Below are positions 32,690-63,930 of a stretch of 64,000 nt of DNA, one piece after another (position 1 is the first letter of the stretch; every line of letters begins with the position of its first letter). The stretch covers positions 6,769,038 to 6,833,037 of the forward strand of contig RPFO01000154.1 in NCBI GenBank assembly GCA_009746045.1, read 5' to 3'. The translations under genes and the position numbers were made by a program. A model generated the notes under the pieces. The model saw only the letters and a program-made list of their open reading frames with translations. It had not been told where the DNA came from and made no database searches. Origin of the DNA: Mesostigma viride (lineage: Eukaryota; Streptophyta; Mesostigmatophyceae; Mesostigmatales; Mesostigmataceae).

Positions 32690-32840
32690 GGCCTGATGAC
32701 TTGTAAAGATATGGCAGACGGTTATGGACAACGCCCCCATGTCGGTTGGGGCTCCGCGTATGATCCAGTTTGGCAACCATGGTGGCCGCGGTGCCCGCAA
32801 CCCTGTAACTAGAATCTAGATAGCTAGATCCATCCACTCG
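32690..32840 (+). mobile_element. LINE 3' end fragment
   Basis: TGGGGCTCCGCGT, GTGCCCGCAACCCTGTAACT and AGAATCTAGATAGCT match the 3' region of the LINE at 37.57-37.68 kb. It abuts the next LINE fragment at about 32845. Confidence 0.55.
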
Positions 32841-32844
32841 AAGT

Positions 32845-33930
32845 CAGCAAGAAGACAGAGGCGCTGGCGGTTGGGCTCATCCAGCTCCCACCAGACCTCT
32901 TCCTTCTTGATGGCTCTTGCGTCCAGTATCGCGACCGCGTCAAGTTGCTGGGTAGCTTACTCCCCAGCTGCGAGGTCGACGTGGACTACCGTATCTCCCT
33001 CGCCTGGCACGCTTTACGCCAATACAGAGCCCTGTGGCGCAAGCCCTTGGGCAAGCTAGAGAAACCGGACCTGTTGAAGGTCCTGGTCCTTCCTGTTCTC
33101 ACGTATGGGGGCGAGACGTGGACCCTCACAGCAGACCTTGCCAAAAAGCTGGACGGCGCGGTCACCAACATGCTGCGGTCAATTTTCCGTGTGGGATACG
33201 CTGTTCACGTCCGCAAGGAGGACTTGTACCTAGGCATGCCACTTATCACCAGCACCATCAAGCAGCGGCGCCTGCAGCTAGTAGGGCACTTAGCTCGCAC
33301 CAACCAGGTAGACACATCACGTGGCCCCTCCGCAGGGCTGCGACCTGCTCAGCCTGGCAGGCACCTCCTCACGTGGGACGGGCCCAGCAATGCTAGACGC
33401 CGCAAGGCCCGCACTTTCAAAGAGCAGCTAGACGAGGACATGGGGGGCCTAGGCCTCTCCGTCATTTGGGAAAAGATGATGGACAAGGCCAAGTGGGCTC
33501 AGGTTATAGAGGACAACGACCCCCCTCCAGCTCGGGAAAGCCGCGTGCTTGCAAACGCGGGAAGCATACTAGGCAAGACCCCTAGGGTCTAGGGCACAAT
33601 AGATATAGAGTAGGATCGTTTTTGTACCTAGATAGAATAGACTGGTAGGATTGCGTGTACCCATCCATCCATCCATCCATCCATCCATCCATCCATCCAT
33701 CCATCCATCCATCCATCCATCCATCCATCCATCCATCCATCCATCCATCCATCCATCCATCCATCCATCCATCCATCCATCCATCCATCCATCCATCCAT
33801 CCATCCATCCATCGGGGTTAATGCTCCGTGACTCCCCAACGGGAGCACGAGTTTAATTAATCCACTCCATCCCATATCCATCCCACTGAGAACTTGTGCT
33901 CGCGTGACGCAGTCTACGTGCTGATTAATC
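32845..33930 (+). pseudogene. non-LTR retrotransposon, C-terminal ORF2 fragment and 3' UTR
   Basis: The open frame to 33592 encodes the region after the reverse-transcriptase palm: LLGSLLPSCEVDVDYRISLA, LVLPVLTYGGETWTL and QRRLQLVGHLARTNQVD, which align with the minus-strand copy at 35.05-35.93 kb. The palm with its YADD box is absent, so the copy is 5' truncated. After the stop come a GTACCCATCC array, the TGCTCC...GGAGCA inverted pair and a degenerate CGTGACGCAGTC hairpin, the same 3' end as the repeats at 0.3-1.2 kb. It is inactive. Confidence 0.8.
33661..33812 (+). repeat. (CATC)n microsatellite in a LINE 3' UTR
   Basis: About 38 uninterrupted CATC units. Shorter versions (4-5 units) sit at the same place in the 3' ends at 0.39 and 0.82 kb, so the array expanded after insertion. 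Confidence 0.97.
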
Positions 33931-43600: not shown

Positions 43601-44794
43601 ACCATTCTAACCACCACACATTACGAAAAGCAAGAAGAAATTATAATAATAATAAGAAGAAATTATAAGAAGAAGAAATAATAATAATAAACAAGCACAA
43701 AGTTGACTGCACATGCGACTGTACCAGTTAGGCACGTAGCAAATTTTAGCTGCAGCTTCAATTTCAACTTCATTGCAATTGCAAGTGTGACTGCATGTGT
43801 AATTGCACTACCAATGCCTAATGCCCACTGCATGTGCCCAGTGCGAATGCAATTCAAAAGCAACATGCAATCGAAATTACAGCTGAAGCCGGCTATTAAC
43901 AAAGATATTTAAAGCAGTTGTTAACTACAGAGACCCAATGAAAATGCAAATGCAATGAAAAAGCAACAGAAGTTGAAGCCACTGCCACTCTACCTGCCGA
44001 CAGTAACACCACCGCCAGCACCCACTCATATCCCAACGACAAGGAAATAGAATTGCCCAAAGCCAGACATACATTGGGACGCATAAGCAAACGGCAACGC
44101 AAGCGCACATGCAAATGTATACGCAAAGGCAAAGGCAAAGGCAAACGCAAACGCAAACGCAAACGCAAGCTTGTCATGTACCTACGCTTAACTGCAAACG
44201 CAAACTGTGCACGAAGCAAAAAGATTGGATGGCCAAGATCATGGCAAATACGAGGGCCGAAAACAATCCAACTTCATCTAAATGTCCGAAATCCTCACGA
44301 CGTTTCGATGCGCGCTTGAATGTCGAAGGCCTGCGCCGATTATCGATCATAAGTCGAATGTGTAATTGTCGGCTTATGAGAACTGCTTTGCGACAGTATC
44401 ACGTCAGGCCGTTCCTGTGCAGCCATTTTCCCTGTGCAGCGGGTGGACAACGTTCACTTTCCGCATTATTCATGGCTATCGAAGTTAATTCTTACCGACC
44501 CCGGCTGCCATGGCCACTGGCCACGCATATCAAGTTCAGGTATTCCCGACCTGTAGCGCAGCAGATTTCTGTCGGAAGGCATCCTAAGCATCGTGATAAA
44601 AGAAATCCGAACAGTAGACATTCATGCTGCATCTAAGGACATTATGGCATTTGTATATACTGCAAGTACATGTATCGACATTGCCGTGATTGCTAACCCC
44701 GACTCACCATGAACAGGAACTTTCCCTCTGCCTCCATGAAATGTACTTCGTGAAATGTACTGTAATACATATGATGTACTACGATGATAATCAT

Positions 44795-45407
44795 CCCAGC
44801 AAAGCCATAGCACACCTTCCGTTTCGACCGCCATGTCGGCCACTAGTCCGGATAGCTCAATGTGCACCTGACCTTGACACTAATCGCACAAACAGCCACA
44901 ATTTTGCAAGCAAGAAGACATGGCTACCTCGGCATTTCATGAAATGTACTTCGTGAAATGCATTTCGTGAAATGTACTAAGGAACGTGATTGGCCGGCGT
45001 TCGCTCGCCAAATCTCGCAAAATGTACTAAGGCACGTGATTGGTCCCGCAAAATGTACTAAGGAACGTGATTGGCCGGCGAAGATTCTGTTTGCTGCAAT
45101 TAAAATTCCCTACAGAATCTTCGCCGGCCAATCACGTTCCTTAGTACATTTTGCGGGACCAATCACGTGCCTTAGTACATTTTGCGAGATTTGGCGAGCG
45201 AACGCCGGCCAATCACGTTCCTTAGTACATTTCACGAAATGCATTTCACGAAGTACATTTCATGAAATGCCGAGGTAGCCATGTCTTCTTGCTTGCAAAA
45301 TTGTGGCTGTTTGTGCGATTAGTGTCAAGGTCAGGTGCACATTGAGCTATCCGGACTAGTGGCCGACATGGCGGTCGAAACGGAAGGTGTGCTATGGCTT
45401 TGCTGGG
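44795..45407. repeat. foldback palindrome with 296-bp arms
   Basis: Left arm 44795-45090 and right arm 45112-45407 are near-perfect reverse complements around a 21-base loop (TTGCTGCAATTAAAATTCCCT with edges). The arms contain smaller repeats of AAATGTACTAAGGAACGTGA. The TIR-proximal right end of TE1 also has GAAGTACATTTTGC, so the palindrome shares motifs with the ends. The right arm runs into the membrane/Cys ORF. Confidence 0.92.
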
Positions 45408-45841
45408 ACATAATCGTGGCTATCTGCTTCCTGGCTTTCGCTATCATGGTGATGGGACACCATGGGAAGCGCAAGTTCGCAGCCATAGTGCTAAGCGGCA
45501 GCACCCATGCCGGCAGCCTAGTGACCGACGAGACGTTCGACTGTAAGTGCGGCCACGAGTGCATGAAGCCCATTAGAATATCACATCTCCAGGCATTGCG
45601 AAGCGCCTGGTTTTCGCCCGGGCGGAAGCAAGAGGACAGGAAGGCGGCGATAAAGCAGCAGCTGCACCAGGGGGGGTACGACGCCATAACCACGATGTCG
45701 TCATCTACTCGTCACAAGTTCGTTCATGGCGCTGGTTTTCGGTTCGTTCTCGACGGGGGAGTCAAGGATATGAACATAGGGTTTGTGACCCCTTTTCACT
45801 TTCGCGTTTCACTTTCGAGGCGGCCTTCAGGCACTGCCTGA
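45335..45841 (+). CDS. TE1 protein with membrane helix and C-x-C-x3-C motif
   Basis: About 168 codons. Residues 25-40 (IIVAICFLAFAIMVMG) form one hydrophobic helix, followed by a basic turn. C70, C72 and C76 lie in CKCGHECM, then LQALRSAW and DRKAAIKQQL. TE2 at 61798 has the same layout: helix at 28-45, CGCGRHCL at 78-85, LRTMRTDMW and DRKEFIKNQL. The shared pattern shows common descent and suggests selection on the Cys domain. A short Cys cluster followed by R...W...R occurs at the N-terminus of some transposon-encoded proteins; that link is inferred. The first 24 residues are coded by the palindrome's right arm. The tail after about residue 115 may be intron read-through. Confidence 0.5.
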   Translation: MHIELSGLVADMAVETEGVLWLCWDIIVAICFLAFAIMVMGHHGKRKFAAIVLSGSTHAGSLVTDETFDCKCGHECMKPIRISHLQALRSAWFSPGRKQEDRKAAIKQQLHQGGYDAITTMSSSTRHKFVHGAGFRFVLDGGVKDMNIGFVTPFHFRVSLSRRPSGTA

Positions 45842-48649: not shown

Positions 48650-49400
48650 AGAGGCATAATATGCTTGTATATAGTGCTAGCAAATGTCACTACCTTTACC
48701 TATGCCTGACCTTACAAGTTGAGGATGGTCTAATGTAGTGGCAAACAGGTTATTTACAACAATTCACAGTTTTCTGACATAGTTTGAGGCAACTATACTT
48801 ACCAAAATGCTTGAAAAAGGCAAAAATTGCACCATTTATGCTAGCAAACGTCACTATTTTGAGATCAAACTGGGCCCAAACTTGGCCCATGGTCTAATCT
48901 AGTGGTGTTAGGTTGCTTCCAACATTTCATAGCTTTCTGACATAGTTTGATATTGTTTAGTAGCTTACACTGAGCAAAATGCTTGAAAATGGCAAAAAAT
49001 GCACCATTTATGCTAGCAAACGTCACTATTTTGACGTCAGACTGAGCCCAAACTTGGCCCATGGTCTAATCTAGTGGTGTTTAGGTTGCTTCCAATATTT
49101 CATAGCTTTATGACGTAGTTTGATATTGTTTAGTAGCTTACACTGAGCAAAATGCTTGAAAATGGCAAAAAATGCAGTATTTATGCTAGCAAACGTCACT
49201 ATTTTGAGTTCAGATTGACCCCAAACTTTGTGCATGGTCTATTCTAGTGGTAATTAGGTTGCTTGCAAATATCCATGATGGTTTGACGTGATTTAGTACT
49301 GTTTCCTATTTATTACTATTTAATTTAACAAAAAATGACAAAAATGTACCTTTATTGCTAGCAAATGTCACCAAGATGACGTCCGATCGATACCAAACTT
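48650..49400. repeat. ~177-bp tandem repeats near the right end of TE1
   Basis: TTTATGCTAGCAAACGTCAC recurs at about 48837, 49010 and 49188, and a weaker copy (TTGCTAGCAAATGTCACC) near 49353. Each unit also carries CATGGTCTAATCTAGTGGTG and TTGATATTGTTTAGTAGCTT. Four degenerate units. Confidence 0.85.
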
Positions 49401-49517
49401 TGTACGAGGTCTATTTTGGTTGCAAACATCATGCATGACAATTTTCAGCATAAAAAGACAAACTTCGGTACGAAGTACATTTTGCGTGCTGGAGTACATT
49501 CTTAATGGCTGGTAGGG

Positions 49518-51807
49518 TTGGCTGCACCAACAGTATATCGTCACGCATAACCAGCTGCCGAAGTCCTTTGAGATGGACAACATCCCAATGTTTTTCTCGG
49601 GCAACACGCAAAAGCTGGTGCAGCGGTGGGTCACAGGCTACCATGAGGTGGCGCTGAAGACGGGAAGATCCGATGTGTGGTACAGGCGCGACCAACAAGG
49701 CTTGCCGGACTACCAACACGTGGTATTTGACGTCGACCCTGCCGAGGAGCTGTGGGAACTTCTGCGCGCCAAGTACGCCCACTCCTCCACCAAGGCGGAG
49801 GCGGAGTGGCATGATTTCAAGGTGGGGGACAAGGAGTCGCCTGACGCCACGATGGACCGCCTGGAGGTCTTGCGGGATGAGGTCCCGGCATGGACGGAGG
49901 CGGAGGCGTGTGAGAAGTGGCTCAAGGCGTTGGGTCCAAAAGCTGCCATGATCCCACAACCTAGATTTGGTTGTCACTGGGACCTGGCCCAGCTGTGCAC
50001 GGAAGTGCATGCATTCAACCGGCGACAGGCACGGGGTCTCCCGGACCTAGTGGAGCTGGTACGCCAAGAAGTCGCCCAAGCGCACAAGGGTAACAGGGTG
50101 GGTGGCGCGCAATCAGGCGGTGGAGGGTCCAGCGGTGGAAGGGGTGGACCAAGCAGCCGGCAGTTTGGGTCGCAGGCGGACAAGCCAGCCAGCGCGGGGG
50201 GCGACAACACGGCCTCCAGCAGCACCGGCCAGGCGACGGCTGACCCGCACAAGGCATGTTGGATCTGCGGGAAGCCAGATCACGTGAAGCGGGCCTGCCC
50301 AGCCCAGTGCAAGAAGGAGCACGCGGCTGGAACGCCCGCCCATGCTCCGGCAGGGTGCAAGTACCCAGTGGTCACCAAGACCGTGCAAGCACATGCAGCG
50401 GCCATGGTGGCGGCCGACAGCACGCCAACAGAGCAGGCAGCTGAGGTATCGGCAGCGCCGGCGTCACCCAGCCAACCGAGTGGGCAGGCGGCGGGGATGG
50501 AAGCGTATGACGCGTATACGCTGGTGGAGCAACCCGACTTGTTCTGGGCTCCTATCCATGCCGTCGAGGTCCAGGCAGCTACCCGAGGCAAGCAGGCACG
50601 GGCATTGCCGTCGTTCCTACCAACCACGGGAAATGGTGAGGGGGGGCCACCCCAGCTTCCTGCATCGTTCCCGGCAGGTTCAACCGGCGGTGAGTCATCG
50701 CTGCTGGAGCACCCGAACCCCGCCGACGCCGAGCAGCGGCGCAAGCTGCCACCATTCTTGCCAGTGGATGGAGTGATTGATGCTCCCTTGTTTTCTGCCA
50801 GGCAAGTGATTGATGGCTGCGGGCAGCGGGGCATCACGTTGGTGCACCAAGCAGCTGCGGCACTGCAGCGGTGCGCCGACAGCCTAGACGCACGCACATT
50901 GCCGGTGGCGGAAACTGCGCGGCGGGTCACCATGCCAGTTATGCCGGCAACCCCGGCAGACGTCCCAGCACCAACCATGCCCCGGGAAGCAACCCGCGAG
51001 GAGCGGATGTCACGGGTGCCGAGGACAGTCACGGTGGCAAAGCACCCTGATGGGTCCCCGGCTATCGCTTTCCAGGCAATCAGCGAGGACGGCACTTGTT
51101 GGGGCCCTATGGTGTGCCCCAGCGCAAAGTCCGTCACCAAGCTGGATGGCGGAGCCGGGCCGCTCGTGATCACCATGGAGCTGGCCAAGATGTGTGGTGC
51201 GACCCGTGAGAACGGCGGGCTCATAGACAGCACCGTTCTCGTGGAGGGATGGAAAGGGCCAGCGGCGCGACCCGATGCAATGACTTCCATGCTGATCAAC
51301 GTCATCCTCAACCCCACGGACCCAAAGCGGATGGCCTGCGTGGCTGTGCCGGCCTTGGTGGTCGACAGGTGTGGGTATGCAGCCCTTATCGGGATGGACG
51401 TCATGTATCGCCTCGGGCTCATAATTGACCCTTGGCTGGAGGTTGCGACCTACCGCCGTGATTGGCAGGGGGAGGGGAAGCAAAAGGCGCTTCTTCCCAT
51501 TCAGTGCAGCAGCGACCCGGAGCCTAACCCGCAGGGGGTGGTGTCGCTAGACGCGTGTGTGGCTGCAGTGGTGTCGCCCGCCAGCATAGAGGTGGAGCCA
51601 GGGCCGGATGCGGCTGAGAACTGGGGGGGGGCGTGTGGCCGGACGCGCAAGCGGTGCACATGGCGCAAGCGGCTAGCGACAAGCGCGCGCGCGATAGGCA
51701 CCGGTGTGTGCTGCCTGCGGCGTTGCCAGCGCGGGATGCGCAGAGGCAAAGTTGGCTTGCCCAGGTTGCGCCCCTGCCACGCCTGCGCGATGTGCGCGCA
51801 CGGGTGA
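49518..51807 (+). CDS. gag-pro: gag C-terminal part, zinc knuckle and aspartic protease
   Basis: The frame resumes at the TE1 target site (W-L-H-Q-Q-Y-I-V-T-H-N-Q). Counting from MDNIPMFF (49573): capsid-like helical part 1-170, Gly/Ser linker, zinc knuckle C229-x2-C232-x4-H237-x4-C242, a long Pro/Ala-rich linker, then the protease at about 485-625 with D525 in KLDGGAGPLV and the closing strand ALIGMDVMYRLG (604-615). Retroviral-type proteases cut the polyprotein; here D-G-G-A replaces the usual D-T/S-G-A. The frame overlaps pol by about 190 bases and ends at 51807. The nine-G run 51623-51631 lies at the start of the overlap, a likely -1 shift point. Confidence 0.85.
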
Positions 51808-54800
51808 TGGCGGCATGTCAGGCACTGCCCAAGGGTGCTGGGGGGAAGCGGCGCCAGCCGGGTGCCATCACGCCGTACCCCGGCTTTAGCGCAGAGGTGC
51901 TGGAACGCATCCCGGACTTCGGGCGTGCCACCGTCGTGCTGGAGCTGTTCGCAGGTATGGGTGGCGGCATAGCCGGTTTCCTGAGCAGCGGGGGGGTATG
52001 CAGCAAGCTCATTGCGGTGGAGGCATCGCTCACAGCCAGGGCGGCATATTTGCACCACTGCGCTATCTTGTCGCAAGCATACCCAGCACAATTTCCTCCA
52101 TCCGCCTGGGCTGATGTCTTCGGCGAGGGCACTCATGACGTGCGCTTCCTTGGGCAGCAGCAGCTGCGCCGCCTCATCTCACAACATGGCGAGGTAGGGT
52201 TGGTCATTGCTGGCTGGGAGTGCCAAGGCATGAGCCAGGCTGGGCATGGCCGGGGCCTTGCCGACAGCAGGAGCGGCCTATTTTGGGACATGCTGCGCAT
52301 TGTGGGCGAGCTCCAGCAGCTGCAGCAGGTGCCACCCGCCTACTTATTTGAAAACGTAGTGGCGGTGGACAGTCCCAGCCCCACTGTTCGGGAGGATTGG
52401 GGCACCATTGTGGGTATTTTGGGGGAACCCGTGGTGTCGGACAATGCCGGGCTGGGAGGGAATACCCATCGGCTGCGCGCGTTCTGGACCAACATCGCTG
52501 GCCAAGGTTCTACGCAGGCGGTGATGCAGCATGTCGCTAGCCACATTGAGCTGCCACCGGTCGATGTCGTGTTGCCCAGTCAACTCACGGCGCAGTATGT
52601 GGAGCACGATGATCAGGCACCCTACGCGCCCGTCAACAAGGCAGGCGCCCCCATGCGAGCACTGCCCACCCTTGTCAGTTACCAAGGGTCCCAGGCTTAT
52701 CGTGACCGGGGCAAGGGGCTTGTGTGGGAGCGTGCCACAGGTCTCTTGGTTCAGCCACCCGCGGGGTTTCGTGAACTAAGCATGGGCTTTGCCGAAGGTG
52801 CATCCGCCGCCCCAGGGCTCCTGGAGGTGGAGCGATGGTCGCTCATTGGCCAGGCCATGTCAGCCTGGCAGGTGGGGTACACCTTGCTAGCAGCGCAAGG
52901 TGTGCGGAGGGTGCAGCGGGTTGCACTTCCCGTCCATGCTGCGACTGCACAGGCGCAGAGTGAAACTTCTCCACCCACCGGTGCTGCGCCGGCTGGTGTG
53001 CCTAAGGCGGAGCGTGCAGGCGGCAGGGGCCAAGGGTGGTCCTACACCTGGCGCCAGGTATGGTCAGTCATCCTCATGACTGCGCTCCTCACCAGCTGTG
53101 TGTTCTCGGCGGCTCCGGCCTTTCAGTTCCTCGTGGCGAAGGCACAACGGCAGGTGGGAGAGCGAGGCATTACGCCGGGAGCGGCGGCATACATGCTGTT
53201 TCAGTCGGCGGCCGTGCGCGGTCCCACGGTGGCTGTGCACAATGTCTCGAGCGCAAGCGACCCGGCAGCAAACCATCAATGGAGCGTCTGTGAGCACCTC
53301 ACAGCTGAGCAACGTGCGAGGCTGCTCAAGTGGCTGGAAGGTGCGCGCAACGCGTTTGCATTCAGCAGTCAAGAGCTGGGATGCTACAATGGTGGGCAGA
53401 TGCGGGTCCCGCTGGACACCGATCAGCCACTGTTTCGCCGACAACACCGGCTGAGTCAAGCTGAGCTGGAGTTTGTGCAGCAACAATGCGAGGAGCTGGA
53501 GGCTGCTGGCATCATTCGGTCATCCACATCCAACTATGCGGCCGCGACCGTCGTGGCGCCCAAGAAGGATGCGGTGACAGGTGAATGGACTGGGATGCGC
53601 ATGGCGACGGACCTGCGGCAACTCAACGCACACACCCCGATGGACAGGTACCCCATGCCGCGAGTGGACGATGTGCTTGACCGGATATCGCCACGCGTGC
53701 AGTTCATCTCATCCCTAGACCTCCGCAGTGGGTTTCACCAAATCCAAGTGGCGGAGGGTGACCAACGCAAGCTCGCGTTCTGGGGGGGCCACCGACTCTA
53801 TGAGTGGGTCAGGATGCCTTTCGGGCATAGGAATGCGAGTGCCATCTTTCAGCGTGCCATGGATCAAGTGTTGAATGGCATGCCATTCGCTGCGTGTTAC
53901 ATTGATGATGTGATCATCTTCAGTGAGACATTTGAGCAACACCTCCAGCACCTTGAGCAGGTGCGCATGGCACTGGCGCGAGCCAACCTAAAGCTGCATC
54001 CCGAGAAGTGTCGGTTTGCGCAGCGGAGCCTCGACTTCCTCGGACACCAGATCATTCCTGGCGGCAGAACTCCACAAGCGGCCAAGGTGGAAGCGATCGT
54101 CAACGCGGCAACGCCCACGGATGTGGCGGGTGTGCGGGCTTACCTGGGGCTGGCGGGGTATTACCGAGGTTATATCCCCAACTTCAGCACCAAGGTTAAG
54201 CCACTGACGGAGCTGTTGAAGAAAGGTGCAGTCTGGGCATGGGGTCCGGCGCAGCAACGCGCCATTGAGACCATCAAGGCAGAGCTCACCTCAGCGCCGA
54301 TACTCCGTCAGCCCGACTATGCCCAGCCATTTGTGCTATACACGGATTGGTCCAGGGTTGGACTTGGTGCTGTGTTGGCACAGAAGGACGTGCATGGCAA
54401 GGAACATGTGGTGGCGTATGCCAGCAGGAGCAACAACACGGCTGAGGCCAAGTACTCATCGTATGAGGGCGAGGCTCTGGCCGTGGTGTGGGCCATCAAA
54501 CATTTTCGGCCATACTTGTTCGGGCGTCAGTTCACGCTGGTCACCGACCATCAGCCACTGCAGTGGTTGATGACAAGTGCCAATCTGACTGGCAAGCTGG
54601 CGCGCTGGGCCATGATTATTCAAGAATATAACATGACCATTGTACACCGCGCTGGGGTGGACCATTCCAATGCCGATGTCTTATCACGCTATGCTTTGGC
54701 AACGTCAGAGGACCGGACGGGGCGCGAGCGCAGGGCGCGGAGGGACCACAGGGCTCAGTCGTCTTTGTCAACGCAGCCGGGCCATGCGATTCCGAGTCGC

Positions 54801-54890
54801 GATGGCTTTCCTGCAGTGATGCCGTGGCGGAGTTTGCGTGCTACGCCAATCCCGTACGGCCAGCGGCTTTCACGCCATCCCAGGGCGTGA
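51618..54890 (+). CDS. pol: pol: C5 DNA methyltransferase, reverse transcriptase, RNase H
   Basis: The frame opens after TGA at 51615; numbering is from 51633. Methyltransferase about 85-425: motif I VVLELFAGMGGG (101-112), motif IV IAGWECQGMSQAG with candidate catalytic C197, motif VI YLFENV (E240-N241), motif VIII THRLRAFWTN (R280, R282), motif X RWSLIGQAMS (401-410). YLFENVV and HRxRxFW resemble the DNMT3 group; PCQ has become ECQ. A hydrophobic segment lies at 477-502. RT about 600-860: D696 in SSLDLRSGFH, then YIDD 756-759. RNase H: D905 in LYTDWS, YEGEALAVVW, D972 in TDHQPL. A methyltransferase could mark new cDNA or the host genome; this is inferred. Domain spacing is intact, suggesting recent function. 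Confidence 0.9.
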   Translation, partial: ELGGGVWPDAQAVHMAQAASDKRARDRHRCVLPAALPARDAQRQSWLAQVAPLPRLRDVRARVMAACQALPKGAGGKRRQPGAITPYPGFSAEVLERIPDFGRATVVLELFAGMGGGIAGFLSSGGVCSKLIAVEASLTARAAYLHHCAILSQAYPAQFPPSAWADVFGEGTHDVRFLGQQQLRRLISQHGEVGLVIAGWECQGMSQAGHGRGLADSRSGLFWDMLRIVGELQQLQQVPPAYLFENVVAVDSPSPTVREDWGTIVGILGEPVVSDNAGLGGNTHRLRAFWTNIAGQGSTQAVMQHVASHIELPPVDVVLPSQLTAQYVEHDDQAPYAPVNKAGAPMRALPTLVSYQGSQAYRDRGKGLVWERATGLLVQPPAGFRELSMGFAEGASAAPGLLEVERWSLIGQAMSAWQVGYTLLAAQGVRRVQRVALPVHAATAQAQSETSPPTGAAPAGVPKAERAGGRGQGWSYTWRQVWSVILMTALLTSCVFSAAPAFQFLVAKAQRQVGERGITPGAAAYMLFQSAAVRGPTVAVHNVSSASDPAANHQWSVCEHLTAEQRARLLKWLEGARNAFAFSSQELGCYNGGQMRVPLDTDQPLFRRQHRLSQAELEFVQQQCEELEAAGIIRSSTSNYAAATVVAPKKDAVTGEWTGMRMATDLRQLNAHTPMDRYPMPRVDDVLDRISPRVQFISSLDLRSGFHQIQVAEGDQRKLAFWGGHRLYEWVRMPFGHRNASAIFQRAMDQVLNGMPFAACYIDDVIIFSETFEQHLQHLEQVRMALARANLKLHPEKCRFAQRSLDFLGHQIIPGGRTPQAAKVEAIVNAATPTDVAGVRAYLGLAGYYRGYIPNFSTKVKPLTELLKKGAVWAWGPAQQRAIETIKAELTSAPILRQPDYAQPFVLYTDWSRVGLGAVLAQKDVHGKEHVVAYASRSNNTAEAKYSSYEGEALAVVWAIKHFRPYLFGRQFTLVTDHQPLQWLMTSANLTGKLARWAMIIQEYNMTIVHRAGVDHSNADVLSRYALATSEDRTGRERRARRDHRAQSSLSTQPGHAIPSRDGFPAVMPWRSLRATPIPYGQRLSRHPRA

Positions 54891-55701
54891 TATTTCTTCC
54901 TTTGGCTGAAGACACGCTTGCGCAGCCGGTGGATCCGGCGAGCATGGGCTGTGTGGTGCTGCATGCTGCCGCCAGTCACGCCATTGCGGTGGAGTGCTGC
55001 GCTGGGGACGTGTGGCTGGATGGGAGGGTTCTCGAGCGGGTGCAGGGTTTGCCTGCCTCTCCAGCCCCTGCTGACTGGACACCGACGCAGAGGCAAGCCG
55101 AGCAAGAGCGCGTGGAGCGCCGGGCTGTGAATTATACCTGGGAGGGCAACCAGGTCTACAAGCTTGTGGGGCGCCGCAAGCTGGTCGTGCCGCCCCCTGA
55201 CAAGCGTGCTGCCCTCGTTGCACATTACCATGAGCGGTTCGGGCACATGGGTGCAAACCGCACAGGTGCCATGGTGCGTGGGGTCTATTGGTGGGCGGGC
55301 ATGAAGCATGCCATCGCACGGCAGGTAGCCAGTTGTGCTGAGTGTGCTCGCGCGAAAGCGCGTTTCAACCTGGACCATCATGACAAGGAGCTCATGAGCT
55401 TGCCCATCCGGGGCTTGTTCTACCGGTGGCACGTCGACTTGTGTGGGCCCTTTGAGCTCAGCACTTCCGGCAACCGTTACGTCATGGTGTGTGTGGAATC
55501 GTTCAGCAAGTGGCTGGAACTGCTTCCCCTACCCGACAAGCACGCCGCCACCACAGCCACCTACTTCCTGGATGTTATTGCTCGGTATGGGGCACCGGCG
55601 GAGGTGGTTTCAGACCAAGGCGGGGAATTTCGTGGGGAATTCCAAGAGCTATTGGATTCCTGCTCCATCGATCATCGGCACACGTCGCGGGAGCACCCTC
55701 A
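54824..55701 (+). CDS. int: integrase, N-terminal zinc finger and core, interrupted by TE2
   Basis: Numbering from 54824. The frame is -1 relative to pol and stays open upstream to about 54680, so the true junction lies in 54690-54880. HHCC zinc finger: H136, H141, C171, C174 (HYHERFGHMG...SCAECARAK). Core: D205 in RWHVDLCGPF and D264 in VVSDQGGEF. The open frame runs on into TE2 to 55828, but the coding sequence ends at the TCA target site (55699-55701). The third catalytic residue is beyond TE2. Integrase inserts the cDNA into chromosomes; this copy cannot do so while interrupted. Confidence 0.88.
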
Positions 55702-55817
55702 CCCTAAGCTCGTCTGGATTTGTACTAGAACACTACTACAAATTGAGATTTTTCAAACTTTGTTATTTAGGGCCTCTCGTAAGTCCAAAGCATGTAGGTT
55801 ATTGTCCCAACATGTTG

Positions 55818-56590
55818 TGACACCGTGACACCGTGACACCGTGACACCGTGACACCGTGACACCATAACGCTAGTATTTTACGATTTTGTATGGTGTCAC
55901 AAGGTAATGTGGCGCCCATGGGGTTGCAACAATGATATTACATTGCCCAGAAGCACTGATTAACATGAGGTGACATTGTGACACCGTGACACCGTGACAC
56001 CGTGACACGATGGCACCATAACGCTAGTATTTTACGATTTTGTATGGTGTCACAAGGTAATGTGGCGCCCATGGGGTTGCAACAATGATATTACATTGCC
56101 CAGAAGCACTGATTAACATGAGGTGACATTGTGACACCGTGACACCGTGACACCGTGACACCGTGACACCGTGACACCGTGAATGTACACCGTGACACGA
56201 TGGCACCATAACGCTAGTATTTTACGATTTTGTATGGTGTCACAAGGTAATGTGGCGCCCATGGGGTTGCAACAATGATATTACATTGCCCAGAAGCACT
56301 GATTAACATGAGGTGACATTGTGACACCGTGACACCGTGACACCGTGACACCGTGACACCGTGACACCGTGACACCGTGACACCGTGACACCGTGACACG
56401 ATGGCACCATAACGCTAGTATTTTACGATTTTGTATGGTGTCACAAGGTAATGTGGCGCCCATGGGGTTGCAACAATGATATTACATTGCCCAGAAGCAC
56501 TGATTAACATGAGGTGACATTGTGACACCGTGACATCGTGACATTGTGACACCGTGACAGCATGATAGTGACAATATGACACGATAGCAC
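55818..56590. repeat. TE2 left subterminal arrays: (TGACACCG)n alternating with ~115-bp modules
   Basis: Four copies of a module starting CACCATAACGCTAGTATTTT and ending GATTAACATGAGGTGACATT are separated by 3-10 copies of TGACACCG. The reverse-complement octamer CGGTGTCA forms arrays at 62486-62537 and 62637-62680 near the right end. Confidence 0.92.
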
Positions 56591-56889
56591 TAGCATTTCA
56601 TGATTTTGTTGTTTAGTGCCACAAAGTATTAACGCAACATTAATGTATTATGCAACCATGTATAAATAAAAGAAAATTTATGAATATGATGGATGACCAA
56701 TAATCCCTATTACATGGCCTAGCAAACTTGCATCTGCCAACTGTGTCTCTCTGCCTCTTTAATATCAAATGCAAGATAAAATAATGTATAAATTAGCTTA
56801 AACTTACCTGACAATGATTTGCATACAGCTTTCTTTAATGCAGAATCTGGTGCCAAGCAAATGCCGTATCAAAACCATACATGCCCAAT

Positions 56890-57840
56890 CTAATATGAAC
56901 CATAATAATCGTGTTGCCCCGACTCGTCTACATCTTGCGAGTAGGGTGGCCTTTTCCGCGGTGGAGCCTGGGCATGTGCCTGGTTGTGGGGCCGGCCGGA
57001 CGTGGGCGTTGTAGGCCCACGTCCCTTGCTCATCAAAATGACTATGACCCATGAAATGAGAATCCCTGGCTGCATAACCTCCTCCCTCATCACTCATCAC
57101 CATGTTGCCAGTCTTGCTCCCCGGCGGCCTTGGGGATTTGGGGCCTCGGCTTTGTCTTCCTTGGAGATCTCCTTAGAGGGGGGCTGCGGCATAACGGTAA
57201 GTGCCGTCATTGTAATGCTGCACGGGCTCAGGGTTCTCAACGTAGGTGGTTTGTTGCAATGTGCCGCGACCTCAAGGCTGATGTGTATCAGCTGCCGACC
57301 CTTCGCCAGGCTGTGGATCGTACATGCCGGCATGGTATACATAAGCATTGGCCGCTTGCCTGCCAGCGGCAGTAGGCTGGGCATGCATTCCTTGGTCGTA
57401 CGGCGCGTACACACCGTGCTCGCCGTACGGTTCCCCCTCCCGATCCAGCTGCCTCGGCCCATCCATTGCGACTGCGCGCGCGCGTGGCTCTTGTTGACGG
57501 TGTGCTGGTTGCAGTCCTGTCACTTGGCCATGGGCCGCGCTGAAGCTTTCGCGTTGCCCCAACGCGGCAGGCGCAGCGGGCCGGCGAAGCTCCGTGCCAA
57601 CGCCAGTGCTGGAGCTGGGTGCAGCACTTGCTGGGGTGGATGGCATTCTTCGTTGGTTCTCCAAAGCATTGACCCTCTCGGTCAGGGCCTTAACCTTGAC
57701 GTACACGTGCGATTTCTTATTCCCCCGCCCTTCATCACCTACGGGTGTCCCCGCATCAACTGCGCTCTCAGTCTCCTCCCCCGTTGGCCGTGCTACGCCC
57801 GTTCCATCGTCATGCTCCGCACACAACGGTCTGAAAGTGC
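56890..57840 (-). CDS. possible minus-strand gene in TE2, Pro/Gln/Ala-rich
   Basis: After a good acceptor (GGCACTTTCAG) the minus strand from about 57831 reads AEHDDGTGVARPTGEE, then VYVKVKALTERVNALEN (short coiled coil), then low-complexity Ala/Pro/Gln. A second possible exon near 57190 reads PPSKEISKEDKAEAPNPQ after TTATGCCGCAG, and another near 57000. The exon joins are not certain. No family is recognised. Confidence 0.3.
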
Positions 57841-58129
57841 CAAAAAACAGCCTTATAACTCCTGTACGATGCAAATATTGTCGAAACATGCTAGATCTTG
57901 GTAGGTAGCATGTTCAGGACACCAGTAGAAGGATTGCAACTTTCCGGACTTACCGGACCTCAGCTGACCTATTTTTGGCATTTCTATTTTTAGCAGTTTT
58001 CCAGATTTTAATATAAACAAATACATTCTAATATGCAAATAAAGAGTTCTTGACCTGGCTGTTTGCAAGTAAGTTGATACTCATGACTAATGACTGTACA
58101 CAAGATCTGATGGTCATCCAACCGCATTT

Positions 58130-58640
58130 GGTAACAAAATGCCACCAAATGCTAGCAAAAATGTGCGTTTTTTGTATTTTTCATCACATTTCATTGCAGT
58201 TTCCATACAAGCTGTGCTCGGTTGAGGCTGGAAACTTGTAGGCATCTTAAACATCATTATTCTAGACATCCCACAAAAATTCAGGTCCATCATAGGGTAT
58301 TTGATGTCAGTTTGCTCACAAATGTTACCAAAAATGCACGTTTTTCGTATTTTTCATCACATTCCATGGCAGTTTCCATACAAGATGTGCTCAGTTCAGG
58401 CTGGAAACTTGCATGCATCTTTGCCATCATTATTTTAGACATTCCACAAAAATTCAGAACCATCAGAGGGTATTTGATGTCAGTTTGCTCACAAATGTTA
58501 CCAAAAATGCACGTTTTTCGTATTTTTCATCACATTTCAGTGCAGTTTCCGTACAAGATGTGCTCTGTTGAGGCTGGAAACTTGCATGCATCTTAGCCAT
58601 CATGATTTTAGACATTCCACAAAAATTCAGGCCGATCATG
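58130..58640. repeat. ~174-bp tandem repeats in TE2
   Basis: CGTATTTTTCATCACATT recurs at about 58170, 58345 and 58518, with TTCCATACAAGATGTGCTC and GGCTGGAAACTTGCATGCAT in each unit. Three units of nearly the same length as the tandem repeats of TE1 but of different sequence. 58.64-59.23 kb holds nothing recognised. Confidence 0.88.
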
Positions 58641-59234
58641 TTCTATTTGGTAGAGCTATCAATGCCATACCTGCCAGTTTCCATTACAAATTCTTACCCA
58701 TGGATGCGAAACTGCCAGTGTGGAATATCAAGGAGACAATCTGGTCAACTCAAATAAGATGACTCACTAAAACATGGAAACCATTCACGAGTGATGTAAG
58801 ACAACCCGTCCAGGAGACATACATAAAAGTTCATTGATATAGACACAGCTGACAATATGCACATGTGGCCATGTGGATGCTCACGCAATTTCTATTATAG
58901 GGAGGAGCTTGCTGAACATAATATTGGCAGCTGTCGCATGCATGGCTAGAAAGGTCATTTTACACGTGCACCCACAGCATGCCAAGTAATGTAGTTGCAA
59001 ATTACTCAACACGCGGCATGGCGCTGATGCGTTTGCGCGCCCTCATCTCGGTATCGCTAGCTAGGAGGTAGTGGCACCTCCCTGCACAATCTCTGCCTGA
59101 CCTTGTCAGCCTTCATGCACTGTGTCAACATGGACACCCCCACACCCTTGCCCTTGGCATCACAGCCAAGCTTTCGACGGTGGTTGGTGAAGCTCTTGGT
59201 GTCCTCCTTGCGCATGTGGTGCATGTGCAAGTTA

Positions 59235-59327
59235 CTAAGTGAGTGAGTGAGTGAGTGAGTGAGTGAGTGAGTGAGTGAGTGAGTGAGTGAGTGAGTGAGT
59301 GAGTGAGTGAGTGCGTGCGTGCGTGAG

Positions 59328-59371
<44 letters not shown>

Positions 59372-60340
59372 TGAGTGGGTGGGTGGGTGGGTGGGTGGGG
59401 GTGGGTGGGTGGGTGGTGTGGGTGGGTGGGTGGGTGGGTGGGTGGGTGGGTGGGTGGGTGGTGGGTGGGTGGGTGGGTGGGTGGGTGGGTGGGTGGGTGG
59501 GTGGGTGGGTGGGTGGGTGGGTGGGTGGGTGGGTGGGTGGGTGGGTGGGTGGGTGGGTGGGTGGGTGGGTGGGTGGGTGGGTGGGTGGGTGGGTGGGTGG
59601 GTGGGAGGGAGGGTGGGTGGGTGGGTGGGTGGGTGGGTGGGTGGGTGGGTGGGTGGGTGGGTGGGTGGGTGGTTGGGTGGGTGGTTGGGTGGGTGGGTGG
59701 GTGGGTGGGTGGGTGGGTGGGTGGGTGGGTGGGTGGGTGGGTGGGTGGGTGGGTGGGTGGGTGGGTGGGTGGGTGGGTGGGTGGGTGGGTGGGTGGGTGG
59801 GTGGGTGGGTGGGTGGGTGAGGGAGTGAGTCCACGAGTGAGTGAGTCCACGAGTGAGTTCACGAGGGAGGAAGGGAGGGAGGGAGGGAGGGAGGGAGGGA
59901 GGGAGGGAGGGAGGGAGGGAGGGAGGGAGGGAGGAGGGAGGAGGGAGGGAGGGAGGGAGGGAGGGAGGGAGGGAGGGAGGGAGGGAGGGAGGGAGGGAGG
60001 GAGGGAGGGAGGGAGGGAGGGAGGGAGGGAGGGAGGGAGGGAGGGAGGGAGGGAGGGAGGAGGGAGGGAGGGAGGGAGGGAGGGAGGGAGGGAGGAGGGA
60101 GGGAAGAAGGGAGGAGGGAGGGAGGGAGGGAGGGAGGGAGGGAGGGAGGAGGGAGGGAGGGAGGGAGGGAGGGAGGAGGGAGGGAGGGAGGGAGGGAGGG
60201 AGGGAGGGAGGAGGGAGGGAGGGAGGGAGGGAGGGAGGGAGGGAGGGAGGGAGGGAGGGAGGGAGGGAGGGAGGGAGGGAGGGAGGGAGGGAGGGAGGGA
60301 GGGAGGGAGGGAGGGAGGGAGGGAGGGAGGGAGGAAGGGA
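59235..60340. repeat. compound G-rich arrays: (GAGT)n, (GCGT)n, (GGGT)n, (GGGA)n
   Basis: GAGT 59237-59312, GCGT about 59313-59372, GGGT 59373-59818, GGGA 59868-60340, with small slips. Four neighbouring tetranucleotide arrays differing by single base changes. Open frames through them are artefacts. Confidence 0.97.
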
Positions 60341-60353
60341 GTGGATCGGTCAC

Positions 60354-60785
60354 TCACAGCAGTTTATTCCCACCCCAGCAGGGCCCCTCCCTCACATCCG
60401 GCTGCAAAATCTGCTTGATGTCGCTTCTCTCTAGAATAAGCCGCACAGCCCTGATGCGAGCAAACGGCTCGCCATCATACTGTCGCTCACTGATGCTTTA
60501 TACGCGCTTTCCGTAAGATGAAAACATGACGGAAAAGAGAGACTCGGGGAAAGGGGATACGGTGAAATACTTGTCTGCTACCGGCCGGGGTTTCAACAGC
60601 GAAGAAATTCGCACCTGAATGTGCACATACCACTCCGTCACGTCGACAACGGTCTTGCATCGCAATCGTTTCACAGACGCGGCAGCAAAAATTGCTGGCG
60701 GCATTGACATGCTCGCCGCAGTTAACGAACGTGCGGAGGTCCGTTTTAGCCCCTGACGCCACGGCGTCTTTGATGCCAAGAACGC
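60354..60785 (-). CDS. possible minus-strand exons in TE2
   Basis: Candidate exon after TTTTGCAG at 60785 down to about 60615, and a second after GCATCAG at 60489 reading ERQYDGEPFARIRAVRLI then ILQPDVREGPCWGGNKLL-stop (stop near 60355). The second has strongly protein-like composition. The phases of the two do not agree under the simplest splice sites, so their join is unproven. No family is recognised. The GGGA array directly follows the stop. Confidence 0.35.
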
Positions 60786-61297
60786 CTGCAAAAGACACGA
60801 TATCGGGCACAAAAGCACTTAAAAACGGATTACGGGTCTGCGACGCCTGGCCCAGCCTAGAAATTGGATTAAAAATCGCGCCAGCTCGGTTAAAGCAAAC
60901 TGAGCCGGTAATGAAAAAAGTGCTTCGGTCAAGGCCTTAAAAACTAAAAACTGCGTCGGTTAGTGTCAAAAACCAGATGTTAGGGCGACTTTCATCGGGA
61001 AAATTTTTTGCTGCAGGTAGGTGGGGTCGAGAGAAAATCGGCGACAAAACAGGCACCCACCTGTGAATGACGCCAAAATGGAAGGACTCCGCAGAATTTG
61101 TGGCGAAAAAAAATAACGGCAAGTAATATATGACCCTAGGAGCATACACTAAAATTTCCAGCCTCGATACTGCCTTTTTATTCGCTAGCCATTCTTAGCT
61201 ATCCTGACCAGAATGGCCGATGAATGGTTGATAATTTCCTCGGGGATTGAAAGGAAATACCTGCTGCACACCTTGTGACATCGGTTGTGACACCCAT

Positions 61298-61580
61298 GTC
61301 TCAACATGTTTGTAGTTGGTTTGTAGTTGGTGTCTCGGTGTCTCAGAAACTCGTGGTCCGCATTGAGTGGGTGTCACGGTGTCACGACATCTGATTGGCC
61401 CGGTTCAGATTCGCCCCAAATTAAAAAAAAAAAAAAACGAATTAAAAAAAAATTAAAAAAAAAACGAATCTGAACCGGGCCAATCAGATGTCGTGACACC
61501 GTGACACCCACTCAATGCGGACCACGAGTTTCTGAGACACCGAGACACCAACTACAAACCAACTACAAACATGTTGAGAC
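61298..61580. repeat. foldback palindrome with 116-bp arms
   Basis: Arms 61298-61413 and 61465-61580 are essentially perfect reverse complements, separated by a 51-base A-rich loop. The arms include GGTGTCACGGTGTCAC, the same octamer found in the end arrays, so the palindrome may derive from TE2 ends. 60.8-61.3 kb holds nothing recognised. Confidence 0.93.
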
Positions 61581-61797
61581 ACCGTGACACCGTGCGCTTT
61601 CACCCCGAATTCACGAGAGCGGCAGCGATGGTGATCGCTGCCAAATGAGGTAACATGGGCTAAACAACTCGGGCAGACCGGGCTGGCGTGACATCCCGGT
61701 CTGCCATGTTTTATTCCCCCCCACACATGGCGTGGGGATCTACGTTTGCCATCTGCCAACGTAGAAATAGATGGGGAGGGGGGGGGACAAATGATGT

Positions 61798-62202
61798 TTG
61801 CAACATTGCCCAGTTGACATAGCCATGGCGAGACCCGGCGTTTTCATGGAGCCCAGTGCGGGGGCGCTGGGTTGGCAGGTTTTGGGAATGTTCTTCTTGC
61901 TATTACTCCTGGGCGTCGTCGTGTTCAATATGATGGCGAGGCGCGGGGTCCGGTTATCTGCAGCCGCCGTGTTGGCGAAATGCACCCAGGATTCGTCCTT
62001 GGCTGCGGCACTTTGCAGGGACTGGGACTGTGGTTGTGGCCGCCATTGTTTGAGAAGCGTGCATTTCGAGGAGCTCAGGACGATGAGGACCGACATGTGG
62101 TCTAAGAAGCCTGCGGATCGGAAAGAGTTTATAAAGAACCAGCTTTTTCAGGCCGGCCAGGGAGAAACTGAAATCCCGGCAAGTGATTTCATGACAAAGT
62201 GA
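61798..62202 (+). CDS. TE2 protein with membrane helix and C-x-C-x3-C motif
   Basis: ATG candidates at 61798 and 61825 (MARPGVFME). Hydrophobic helix VLGMFFLLLLLGVVVFNMM (residues 28-46), basic ARRG, then C78, C80, C84 in CGCGRHCL, LRTMRTDMWSKKPADRKEFI and KNQLFQAGQ. It corresponds to the TE1 protein at 45335 in order and spacing. The stop at 62200 may be reached after reading past a splice donor. It sits beside the foldback, as in TE1. It could be the first exon of a transposase or an accessory membrane protein. Confidence 0.5.
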   Translation: MQHCPVDIAMARPGVFMEPSAGALGWQVLGMFFLLLLLGVVVFNMMARRGVRLSAAAVLAKCTQDSSLAAALCRDWDCGCGRHCLRSVHFEELRTMRTDMWSKKPADRKEFIKNQLFQAGQGETEIPASDFMTK

Positions 62203-62485
62203 TTTTGATGGTTGCTTGCATGCATATTAAGTGAGACAGCTATTCCTGGACGCATGGCGTGCCAACATATATAAGTTGTTACCAGATATTAATCACATGC
62301 CCTATTGAAGCGACGTTGGACCGCATAAACGAGGAATGGCTGAACTTGTCATGACCCGGCAAGGTACCTACACGCACAACAAGAATACATCAACATGAGA
62401 CGATATATGGTGAGATGACCGAGATGTATGGAGAAATGAATGTCTCTACTAGGATTATTATGAAGGTGTATACGTGGTATTTGCG

Positions 62486-62680
62486 GTGTCACGGTGTCAC
62501 GGTGTCACGGTGTCACGGTGTCACGGTGTCACGGTGTCAGAAGCATAGGTAAAACTTGCAATGACCCATTGAATACATCATCCCCATTAATAATCACTGC
62601 ATACCTGCAAAGATGTGTGTTTATATGCATTTTGAGGTGTCACGGTGTCACGGTGTCACGATGTCACGGTGTCACGGGTC
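62486..62680. repeat. TE2 right subterminal (CGGTGTCA)n arrays
   Basis: Two octamer arrays at 62486-62537 and 62637-62680, the reverse complement of the left-end TGACACCG arrays. Inverted subterminal repeats are where transposases of CACTA-type elements bind; by analogy these could be binding sites. Confidence 0.88.
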
Positions 62681-62796
62681 CTATGAACTTCCCCTTCCTC
62701 AGAGACTTAAGTGGAAACTTTAAATTCAATAAAATACAACTTTTCAAAATGAACTACAAATTGCGTGTTCTAGTACAAATCCAGACGAGCTTAGGG

Positions 62797-63733
62797 TCAG
62801 GCCAATGGACTGGCTGAGCGTTTGGTTCAGACAGTCAAACAGGCGCTGCGCAAATGGGCGTTGCAAGCAGCACGTGTGGCCACCTGGGATAGGGAACTAC
62901 CCTGGATCGCCATGGGCTACCGGCTGAGCCCACAAGAATCCCTTGCCCAGTTCTCCCCCTATTTTCTGCTCTTTGGTCGGGCACCATTGTTGCCCTCTGA
63001 GGTGCAGGAAGCTCACCCCCAGCCGATTCAATGGGATGACGCCAATGAGTGGTTGCGGGAGGTTGTGGCGCGCGCCGCCACCTTTAAGAAGGTGCTGCCC
63101 CTCGCGATGAACAATCTGTTAATCGCGCAGCACCGCGACACACTGCGGTACGCCCAGCGACGGGGTGGCAAGTATATGGCCAGGCGGCTGCAGTTCCACC
63201 CCGGCCAGTATGTGTTTCTGCGGACTCAACCCCAACACACGCTGGACGTCACGGCCGGGCCCACCATCCTTCGCATTGTGGAGATTAAGCCTTCGGGGGT
63301 GGCCATCCTCGAAGGTGCGGATGGTAGTAAGACCACTGACAATGTGTCGAACCTGTCTCCTTGCTCCATGCCCCATCTGGCACGGAGCATCCAGCCGCAC
63401 ACCGCTAGGCGCATCCGCGATGCGCAGTGTCAAATTTGTCACCGGGTCGACCAGCCTGAGGTCATGTTGCTGTGTGATCACTGCAACTGCGGCTGGCATC
63501 TTCACTGCCTTCAACCCCCTCTGTCTCAGGTACCTGAGGGTTCCTGGTTTTGCCCTGTGTGCATTGCTGCGGGGTTCACCAACCATGCGATTCAAGCAGC
63601 TCCTGCCACTTTGTTGCTCGCTACCCAGCAAAGGACTTGGTCGCGAGGGGGGGGGAGAAAAGTGGGCAGCACTAGTGGGGTAAGGCTAGCATGTGGCCCA
63701 TCGATCACCGGCCCATGCAGCCATACCTCATGA
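62797..63733 (+). CDS. int: integrase C-terminal part, GPY/F module and PHD finger
   Basis: It starts at the TCA target site. The first codons after TE2 give Q-A-N-G-L-A-E-R, so the catalytic Glu is coded at 62816-62818. From 62822 numbering: helix and PQESLAQFSPYFLLFGRAP (typical Ty3/Gypsy core end), GPY/F module 125-181 (FHPGQYVFL, GPTILRIVEI, VSNLSPC), then a PHD finger C203-x2-C206-x11-C218-x2-C221-x4-H226-x2-C229-x14-C244-x2-C247 with W242. PHD fingers bind histone H3 tails, so this may steer integration to marked chromatin, as chromodomains do in chromoviruses; that role is inferred. The frame ends at 63733, past the polypurine tract. Confidence 0.9.
63655..63672 (+). other. polypurine tract candidate
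   Basis: GA, nine G, then AGAAAAG, followed by TGGGCAGC. An all-purine run just before TG is the usual primer site for plus-strand synthesis at the edge of the 3' LTR. The integrase ORF runs through it. Confidence 0.55.
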
Positions 63734-63764
63734 GGGCCAACGAGGTCGTGGGCTACTGTCAGTG

Positions 63765-63930
63765 CAGGGAGTTTGGCACGAGTACGCGACAATCTTGCTC
63801 GCACCAGTCCTGTAGACACCGACCTCGGTCTGGCCGGCCCCCAGCGGCTTGGCCAGCTGGGGCAGCATATCCTGACCTGGCCTGGCCCCAAGGACATTCC
63901 TAAAAGGGTAGGTAAACATGTCTCGAGCTA
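63765..63930 (+). pseudogene. LINE C-terminal fragment at the 3' end of the retrotransposon
   Basis: The frame encodes LARTSPVDTDLGLAGPQRL and HILTWPGPKDIPKRVGK, nearly identical to the minus-strand LINE at 35.28-35.38 kb (LARTSQVDTALGLAGPQRL). It begins about 90 bp after the putative LTR start and removes or splits the 3' LTR. Confidence 0.75.

Follow-up and report, generated by a model that had tools for sequence, protein, structure and literature searches.

Hosts use methylation as a weapon against retrotransposons, and an element that bears a methyltransferase carries an enzyme of the silencing kind itself. A Ty3/Gypsy copy in Mesostigma viride, a streptophyte alga, raises the question of whether the C5 DNA methyltransferase (MT) within its pol gene is a lasting part of the element, and what such an enzyme might do there. 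The copy lies in a 64,000-nucleotide stretch of genomic DNA (the window). The explanation that we favor, with a probability of roughly 0.58 for the whole, is that of an MT-bearing Gypsy element, in which end-joined cDNA would be opened by the integrase, the MT would mark the new DNA, and a PHD finger would steer insertion. The phenomenon of DNMT-bearing Gypsy elements is known already from Klebsormidium: the main text of de Mendoza et al. (2018, PMC5890265) describes KnitGypsy-Dnmt3 of Klebsormidium nitens, a Gypsy element with split repeats.

Organization of the window copy

The window was shown to hold a damaged member of a Ty3/Gypsy family that has amplified recently in M. viride, and two gene models of this species (P0009 and P0007) matched at 98-99% identity in protein searches. 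The features of the copy are the following.

49518, plus strand: 5′ truncation point; other copies extend upstream with a leader and repeat A
49573-51141, plus strand: gag-like region, within the open reading frame (ORF) 49516-51807
51142-51582, plus strand: aspartic protease-like region, in the gag ORF, before the MT
51618-54890, plus strand: pol ORF, 1090 aa stop to stop, with MT, reverse transcriptase (RT) and RNase H in one frame
51623-51631, plus strand: run of nine G in the gag-protease/pol overlap, site of a -1 frame change
51891-52913, plus strand: DNMT3-type C5 methyltransferase, pol aa 92-432, by family profile
52221-52223, plus strand: codon of the MT catalytic Cys
52350-52352, plus strand: codon of the MT ENV Glu
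52467-52478, plus strand: MT HRLR motif
53427-54224, plus strand: RT (RVT_1, E 1.2e-29; family profile)
54234-54647, plus strand: RNase H (RT_RNaseH, E 1.7e-38; family profile)
55190-55701, plus strand: integrase, first part, with H2C2 zinc finger and start of the DDE core
55702-62796, no strand assigned: transposon with terminal inverted repeats (TIRs) inside the integrase, foreign to the element, 7,095 bp
62797-63277, plus strand: integrase, last part, by family profile
63428-63562, plus strand: PHD finger (PF00628, E 1.6e-9), C-terminal end of the polyprotein
63647-63655, plus strand: G-run directly 5′ of repeat B, candidate polypurine tract (function inferred from sequence)
63656-63791, plus strand: repeat B, 136 bp, ending in CGCGACA, the 3′ end of the window copy

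The gag-like region contains a CCHC zinc knuckle (50254-50301; zf-CCHC E 0.0073), which was also found in two other copies, L012 (E 0.0035) and L025 (E 0.0018), in each case below the Pfam cut-off. Pfam scored no protease in the window gag ORF; the protease-like region was assigned by blastp to P0013 (E 8e-6), a protein that bears PF13650, and the motif read by eye is D-G-G-A in family A (that of the window), D-S-G-A in family B, and D-T-G-A in P0013. The first part of the integrase scored with both Integrase_H2C2 (E 1.1e-14) and rve (E 1.3e-12). Among PDB entries, the PHD finger matched those of BAZ2B (best, 9.5e-16), CHD4, and KDM5-type proteins. A 129-bp LTR at 63663-63791 was considered and dropped, as comparison of copies gave the 136-bp repeat B.

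The window copy is broken in three ways that the initial annotation had not reported, by 5′ truncation, by a frame break between RNase H and integrase, and by an insert that splits the integrase. Alignment of the 14 other copies of family A that were fetched (L010-L023) starts at 49518, and upstream of this point they have in common a sequence that is absent from the window. The insert has perfect 32-bp TIRs (CCCTAAGC...) and a 3-bp target site duplication (TSD), TCA, and the site was empty in seven of seven copies examined; beyond it, 62797-63791 matches L010, L012-L015, and L019 at 98.8-98.9%, and L011 at 98.3%. No transposase was identified in the insert. Repeats of the TGACACCG type lie close to both of its ends.

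In six family-A copies the frame is intact between RNase H and integrase, and MT, RT, RNase H, integrase, and PHD finger form a single unbroken frame of 1642 aa, preceded by a gag-protease frame of 975-1081 aa in a different frame, as in the window. The G9 run is present in the window and in 12 of the 14 family-A copies, and is G10 in L016 and L020. These sequences suggest programmed -1 frameshifting at G9 in family A, by which the MT would be made in the amounts of Pol, not of Gag. In family B, zinc knuckle through PHD finger are encoded in one 2074-aa frame.

Copies and families in the Mesostigma genome

Genome searches were carried out on the M. viride assembly (440 Mb, 2243 contigs). Searching with the MT gave at least 117 scored places, of 514 candidates. 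At least 30 belong to family A, 18 of which, the window included, are 100% identical in protein over the whole query; at least 87, all with one score, belong to family B at 65% identity, and 33 of these 87 lie in the 2074-aa open frame. A second search used the RT, a query without preselection for the MT, and scored 144 of 3247 candidates: 27 listed matches were of family A, 81 of family B, and 36 of a further family, C (83% RT identity). Of the 27 listed family-A matches, 24 are preceded on the same strand by an MT no more than 12 kb away (19 at up to 2.6 kb, 5 at greater distance), and 3 had no MT among the matches listed. Of family C, two of the 36 places were fetched; both have the MT, cut at its start in one, and gapped just after the catalytic Cys in the other (L054).

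Where they align with the window, these 14 copies of family A match it at 98.3-99.9% identity, and such near-identity indicates that the family moved recently. Thirteen of the 14 have identical MT DNA over 1023 bp, and the occurrence of an identical MT in many copies shows that it is not a chance match.

Several side observations were made. In three family-A copies (L017, L018, and L022) a shortened pol runs straight into repeat B, and these copies have kept the MT but lack integrase and PHD finger; four copies carry an identical 486-aa MT frame. A 72% RT value at L028 was discarded, as it was taken to come from a neighboring family-C copy (C1956:909900), and not from the family-A copy there. 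A 364-aa C5 methyltransferase ORF of the canonical PCQ type was found at L002-L008, with one identical score at at least 10 places in the assembly, together with a 313-aa frame with one score at at least 16 places; these are perhaps viral, or perhaps belong to another mobile element.

The methyltransferase domain

The initial annotation had placed a C5 methyltransferase at 51918-52893, upstream of RT in a Ty3/Gypsy pol gene, and had named motifs I, IV, VI, VIII, and X, in order and in one frame with RT and RNase H. A profile search of the pol protein, as that annotation had proposed, bore this out (PF00145, E 1.2e-10, aa 107-249, 41.8 bits against a cut-off of 22). The extent given by the family profile is close to the one proposed, and all five motifs were located in order, at pol residues 108 (LELFAGMGGG), 200 (WECQG, with Cys 202), 244 (FENV), 284 (HRLRAFW), and 409 (LIGQAM). 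The MT also proved to belong to a multicopy family; the result named as pointing to a chance insertion, that other copies lack the MT, was not found among the 27 listed family-A RT matches, 24 of which have an MT listed upstream. Motifs I, IV, VI, VIII, and IX-X follow the DNMT3 order, and an AF2 model compared by Foldseek and VIA predicted a full DNMT3 fold. By ranking of PDB profile scores and of predicted structures, the MT appears nearest to DNMT3A, and its identity with animal DNMT3A/B is 21% by structure. Viral contigs scanned with the MT alignment gave 25 pattern matches and no relatives.

The Pro that is a hallmark of DNMT3 before the catalytic Cys is absent from the window MT, which has Glu at this place. 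Among 102 domains of the lineage the residue is Glu in 67, Pro in 28, Ser in 4, and Asp in 3, and this replacement of Pro in 74 of 102 would fit a domain that is no longer a methyltransferase, and that serves Pol as a DNA- or RNA-binding or oligomerizing module. A structural role would likewise accommodate the family-C copy L054, one of two fetched, which is without the residues just after Cys, and the yeast assay of KnitGypsy, in which activity was not found, a result that the main text of PMC5890265 treats as inconclusive. We consider it unlikely, however. The key catalytic residues are conserved across the lineage, as the catalytic Cys, the ENV Glu, and the first Arg of motif VIII were kept in 102 of 102 domains, and the full DNMT3 fold is predicted. 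The Pro and Glu versions both occur within order T1 (MT before RT) and within order T2 (MT before integrase, or after RNase H; see below). In addition, pN was well below pS between families, and comparison of the sequences showed that the MT is kept by purifying selection; for the RT, pN/pS was compared, and not dN/dS, because its synonymous sites were saturated. The MT domain is a fixed and constrained part of an MT-bearing Gypsy lineage.

Possible targets of methylation

The main text of PMC5890265 proposes that retrotransposon-borne enzymes methylate retrotranscribed DNA, and the Mesostigma element fits this proposal because its MT sits in Pol next to the RT. The MT, cleaved from or tethered to RT or integrase in the particle, would methylate newly made DNA prior to its integration or in the course of it, probably at CG. 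Such methylation could mark the DNA as self, shield its cytosines against deaminases, or fix the chromatin state that the inserted copy takes on. Self-methylation of this kind, which the initial annotation had also raised for cDNA or chromatin, is suggested by the position of the enzyme, and the same text reports that SymbioDIRS domains methylate CG in yeast.

The MT might act instead in trans, on host or element chromatin, through self-limiting silencing or a disturbance of the methylome, and not on cDNA. The text of PMC6947507 reports that M. viride has 5mC, mostly in CG, and base changes in the copies are of the kind expected of methylated inserts. Across ten divergent family-A copies, 49 C-to-T changes were counted against the window as sole reference, 25 in CpG (12.1 expected), 17 in CHG (11.3), and 7 in CHH (25.6), a test that overstates significance because related copies share changes. 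The excess at CpG and CHG suggests that inserted copies probably become methylated, by the host or by the element; the element is not clearly CpG-poor, and CpG depletion, looked for as a sign of self-methylation, was not seen. Host enzymes explain the bias equally well, with a host chromomethylase indicated by the CHG share; related copies do not give independent counts, and the MT sits inside Pol. Action in trans is, on these grounds, also doubtful, and methylation of the element's own new DNA remains the reading that we prefer. Mesostigma offers a testable case, with near-identical open-frame copies, a culture (NIES-296), and bisulfite data published in PMC6947507. That a DNMT3 has been kept by a Gypsy lineage across several algal groups suggests that the enzyme benefits the element, or makes the element tolerable.

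Repeats, junctions, and integration

The order of RT-RNase H followed by a DDE integrase with an H2C2 zinc finger is that of Ty3/Gypsy elements. The two identical LTRs that directly flank the internal region in such elements are absent, and split direct repeats are found in their place. Comparison of copies revealed that the full family-A element reads A (1127 bp), coding region, B (136 bp), GC, A, and B. This is the order known from DIRS/PAT retrotransposons, which have split direct repeats (A-coding-B-A-B) and a presumed circular intermediate. The Mesostigma element differs from these in its DDE integrase and 4-bp TSDs; no Phage_integrase match, which would point to a tyrosine recombinase, was found in the scanned ORFs, in which rve and H2C2 are present. 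The same repeat order was found in family B. The outer ends of family A are TGTCGCG...CGCGACA, and its inner junction, CGCGACA-GC-TGTCGCG, is a perfect 16-bp palindrome; the junction of family B is of the same kind with a shorter palindrome (10 bp).

TSDs of 4 bp, within the 4-6 bp range of Ty3/Gypsy elements, flank four of four family-A copies with both outer ends complete, three of the long form (CTTG, GGCC, and AGTT) and one of the short form, A-coding-B (TACT). Long and short forms are thus flanked at the same ends, the start of A and the end of B. In family B the one copy with both ends found has the TSD GGTT. The family-A copy C1690:77 has a truncated B and flanks without a match, and the ends were unusable in C777 and C1837, whose left end was not found, in C224, whose right end was not found, and in C133, where B-GC precedes A.

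The two kinds of junction, searched with a gap of 0-30 bases allowed in each, behaved differently, and reversed control patterns gave no matches. Of 20 B-A junctions, 19 are of one length and one (C800) is four bases longer, whereas the 25 A-B junctions fall into six length classes (14, 5, 1, 2, 2, and 1, shortest first). The longer A-B joints hold extra bases between A and B: TC in C2200, TCCA in C777, and TCC or TCCA in C113 and C1469:570862, all of which are the leader bases that follow A in 13 of 13 copies matched. The extra A and AG of C446 and C1945 are not leader bases. B starts directly after the G-run in six of six copies matched; the run is at the equivalent place in these six family-A copies, and in family B too. 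No tRNA primer site was found after repeat A, as neither family A nor family B has TGG where it would be expected. The constancy of B-A and the raggedness of A-B indicate that the former junction is inherited, and that the latter forms afresh whenever a copy inserts, from an A end that is ragged and a B start that the G-run determines. A linear cDNA would be expected to have just these ends. At several of the 25 places with an A-B junction (C1690:7672662, C1724:1906600, and others) no MT was among the matches listed, from which it follows that solitary A-B copies, comparable to solo LTRs, probably exist.

These junctions suggest the following route. Reverse transcription would yield a linear cDNA that starts at B, primed from the G-run, and finishes at A or a few bases into the leader. 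Its ragged ends would be joined, probably as circles (or as a concatemer), and the DDE integrase would cut at the palindromic B-GC-A junction, so that a two-repeat circle would give A-coding-B-A-B, and a one-repeat circle A-coding-B. A circular intermediate is what we infer from the sequence of the joints. Ragged A-B and constant B-A junctions predict that the donor used by this integrase of retroviral type is end-joined or circular cDNA. The PHD finger may steer insertion according to the state of histone tails, a role in target choice suggested by its position beside the integrase.

The repeat arrangement could alternatively be a by-product of ordinary LTR replication, or of recombination between copies. 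One family-B locus, C133 (L025, with L043 and L044), has the order B-GC-A1-coding-B-GC-A2, after which comes a B-like end that differs; recombination would produce such an order, and the locus looks as if it were tandem or recombinant; the single longer B-A junction, at C800, also points this way. An inherited LTR, however, would give a constant A-B junction, and the reverse was found. The TSDs flank long and short forms with identical ends, and the same repeat order recurs in two families and, according to the main text of PMC5890265, in KnitGypsy. A by-product is consequently a quite improbable explanation, and end-joined cDNA is preferred.

The wider lineage

With the MT region of P0002 as query, a protein search found 104 proteins at E values up to 0.01, the last two weak. 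The hosts named there are Haematococcus lacustris, Chlamydomonas eustigma, Cymbomonas tetramitiformis, and Mesostigma, and no entries named Klebsormidium were among the matches listed in three protein searches. P0011, a database protein labeled Prorocentrum lima, might have been read as a transfer to this dinoflagellate; the last 141 of its 159 residues are identical to Mesostigma family B, and it was taken as a mislabeled or contaminant sequence. By their sequences, some 100 proteins in the databases make up a single Gypsy lineage that bears the MT and shows three domain orders.

Domain orders were labeled in 114 MT-bearing sequences (112 database proteins, the window, and family B). Order T1 was found in 6, with 8 further partial sequences having a protease before the MT, and T2 in 86, of which 48 have the full order RT-RNase H-MT-integrase-PHD and 19 start within the MT. 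T3 (RT-RNase H-MT-PHD-integrase) was found in 3, and 11 were ambiguous. In an RT-RNase H tree made by a quick method from 61 rows passing a length filter, every order occupied one side of a branch, with SH-aLRT values of 97 (starred) for T2, 91 for T1, and 100 (starred) for T3. In the MT tree, which was made from 64 of the 102 domains, after removal of P0001 and roughly half the T2 rows, and in which the bootstrap had not fully settled, the T1 rows and four order-ambiguous rows formed a group of 15 with support 92/67, unstarred. With order-ambiguous rows left out, two changes of order are needed on each tree, which is the minimum. As MT and RT trees sort the orders alike, MT and RT share their history at that depth.

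The protease-MT-RT order with a PHD finger, pointed out in the initial annotation, was recovered, and had been taken there as a possible sign of a separate capture or a new family. The second part is upheld, since the MT-before-RT sequences occupy one side of an RT-tree branch; separate capture is not favored, as the MT and RT trees agree across the three orders. One old capture followed by relocation appears to fit these sequences at least as well as separate capture, and the history may have been either a single capture with later moves, or several captures whose donors were closely related. The idea that an MT gene was inserted by chance into a single copy was refuted, with next to no probability left to it, by an MT that is multicopy, identical, constrained, and shared by three Mesostigma families, three further named algae, and many metagenome contigs. 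A wider proposal, that DNMT3-bearing Gypsy elements are an old and widespread green-algal lineage, in which the MT was retained while it moved within Pol (protease-MT-RT, RT-RNase H-MT-integrase-PHD, and RT-RNase H-MT-PHD-integrase), and which integrates via end-joined, methylated DNA circles, opened by a DDE integrase at the palindrome between the two half-repeats, is made tentatively, at somewhat less than even odds. Retrotransposition by such elements would follow a route between those of LTR and DIRS elements, coupled to self-methylation.

Relation to known elements

Chromoviruses are Ty3/Gypsy elements with a C-terminal chromodomain on the integrase. The Mesostigma element likewise has a chromatin-reader domain at the C-terminal end of its integrase, and differs in having a PHD finger for the chromodomain, an MT in Pol, and split repeats. 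With animal DNMT3A/B it shares the catalytic fold, the motif order, and a histone reader within the same protein; the window MT has Glu for Pro before Cys, and the PHD finger lies beside the integrase, and not beside the MT.

KnitGypsy-Dnmt3, as described in PMC5890265, is similar in its DNMT3-related MT inside a Gypsy Pol ORF, its streptophyte host, its several copies under purifying selection, and its combination of DIRS-type repeats with Gypsy domains; the host is Klebsormidium and not Mesostigma, and the comparison is with the published description, not the sequence. The main text of that paper does not contain the words "PHD," "protease," "Mesostigma," "circular," or "palindrom," and its single mention of "TSD" concerns LINEs. 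The Mesostigma findings add to this main text another host, the protease-MT-RT order, the PHD finger, a broad lineage with three domain orders, and the evidence from TSDs and junctions. The SymbioDIRS-Dnmt3 and SymbioLINE-Dnmt elements of Symbiodinium, also described there, resemble the Mesostigma element in having an MT in or beside a retrotransposon pol and in the coexistence of two domain orders, and SymbioDIRS methylates CG de novo in yeast; they are DIRS (tyrosine recombinase) or LINE elements, in contrast to a Gypsy element with a DDE integrase.

PMC12344493 mentions streptophyte and dinoflagellate elements, of the LTR ("Copia") and DIRS types, that carry DNMT3; its available text does not name Mesostigma, nor do those of PMC9998398 and PMC9861306. 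According to the text of PMC6338049, Ty3/Gypsy and DIRS elements that encode DAM/DCM were seen in several groups, green algae and charophytes included, so that Gypsy elements with an MT have not gone entirely unreported in green algae. A search of mostly open-access literature found no paper on MT-bearing retrotransposons in Mesostigma, Haematococcus, or Chlamydomonas eustigma.

Other features of the window

Two ORFs, at 32828-33589 (plus strand) and 35055-35963 (minus strand), resemble pieces of LINE-type reverse transcriptase by eye and had no Pfam match. Two tandem arrays, at 48736-49253 and 58081-58649, each consist of three units of about 173 bp, and did not match each other in a self-comparison. 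A perfect 297-bp inverted repeat with a 21-nt spacer lies at 44794-45408.
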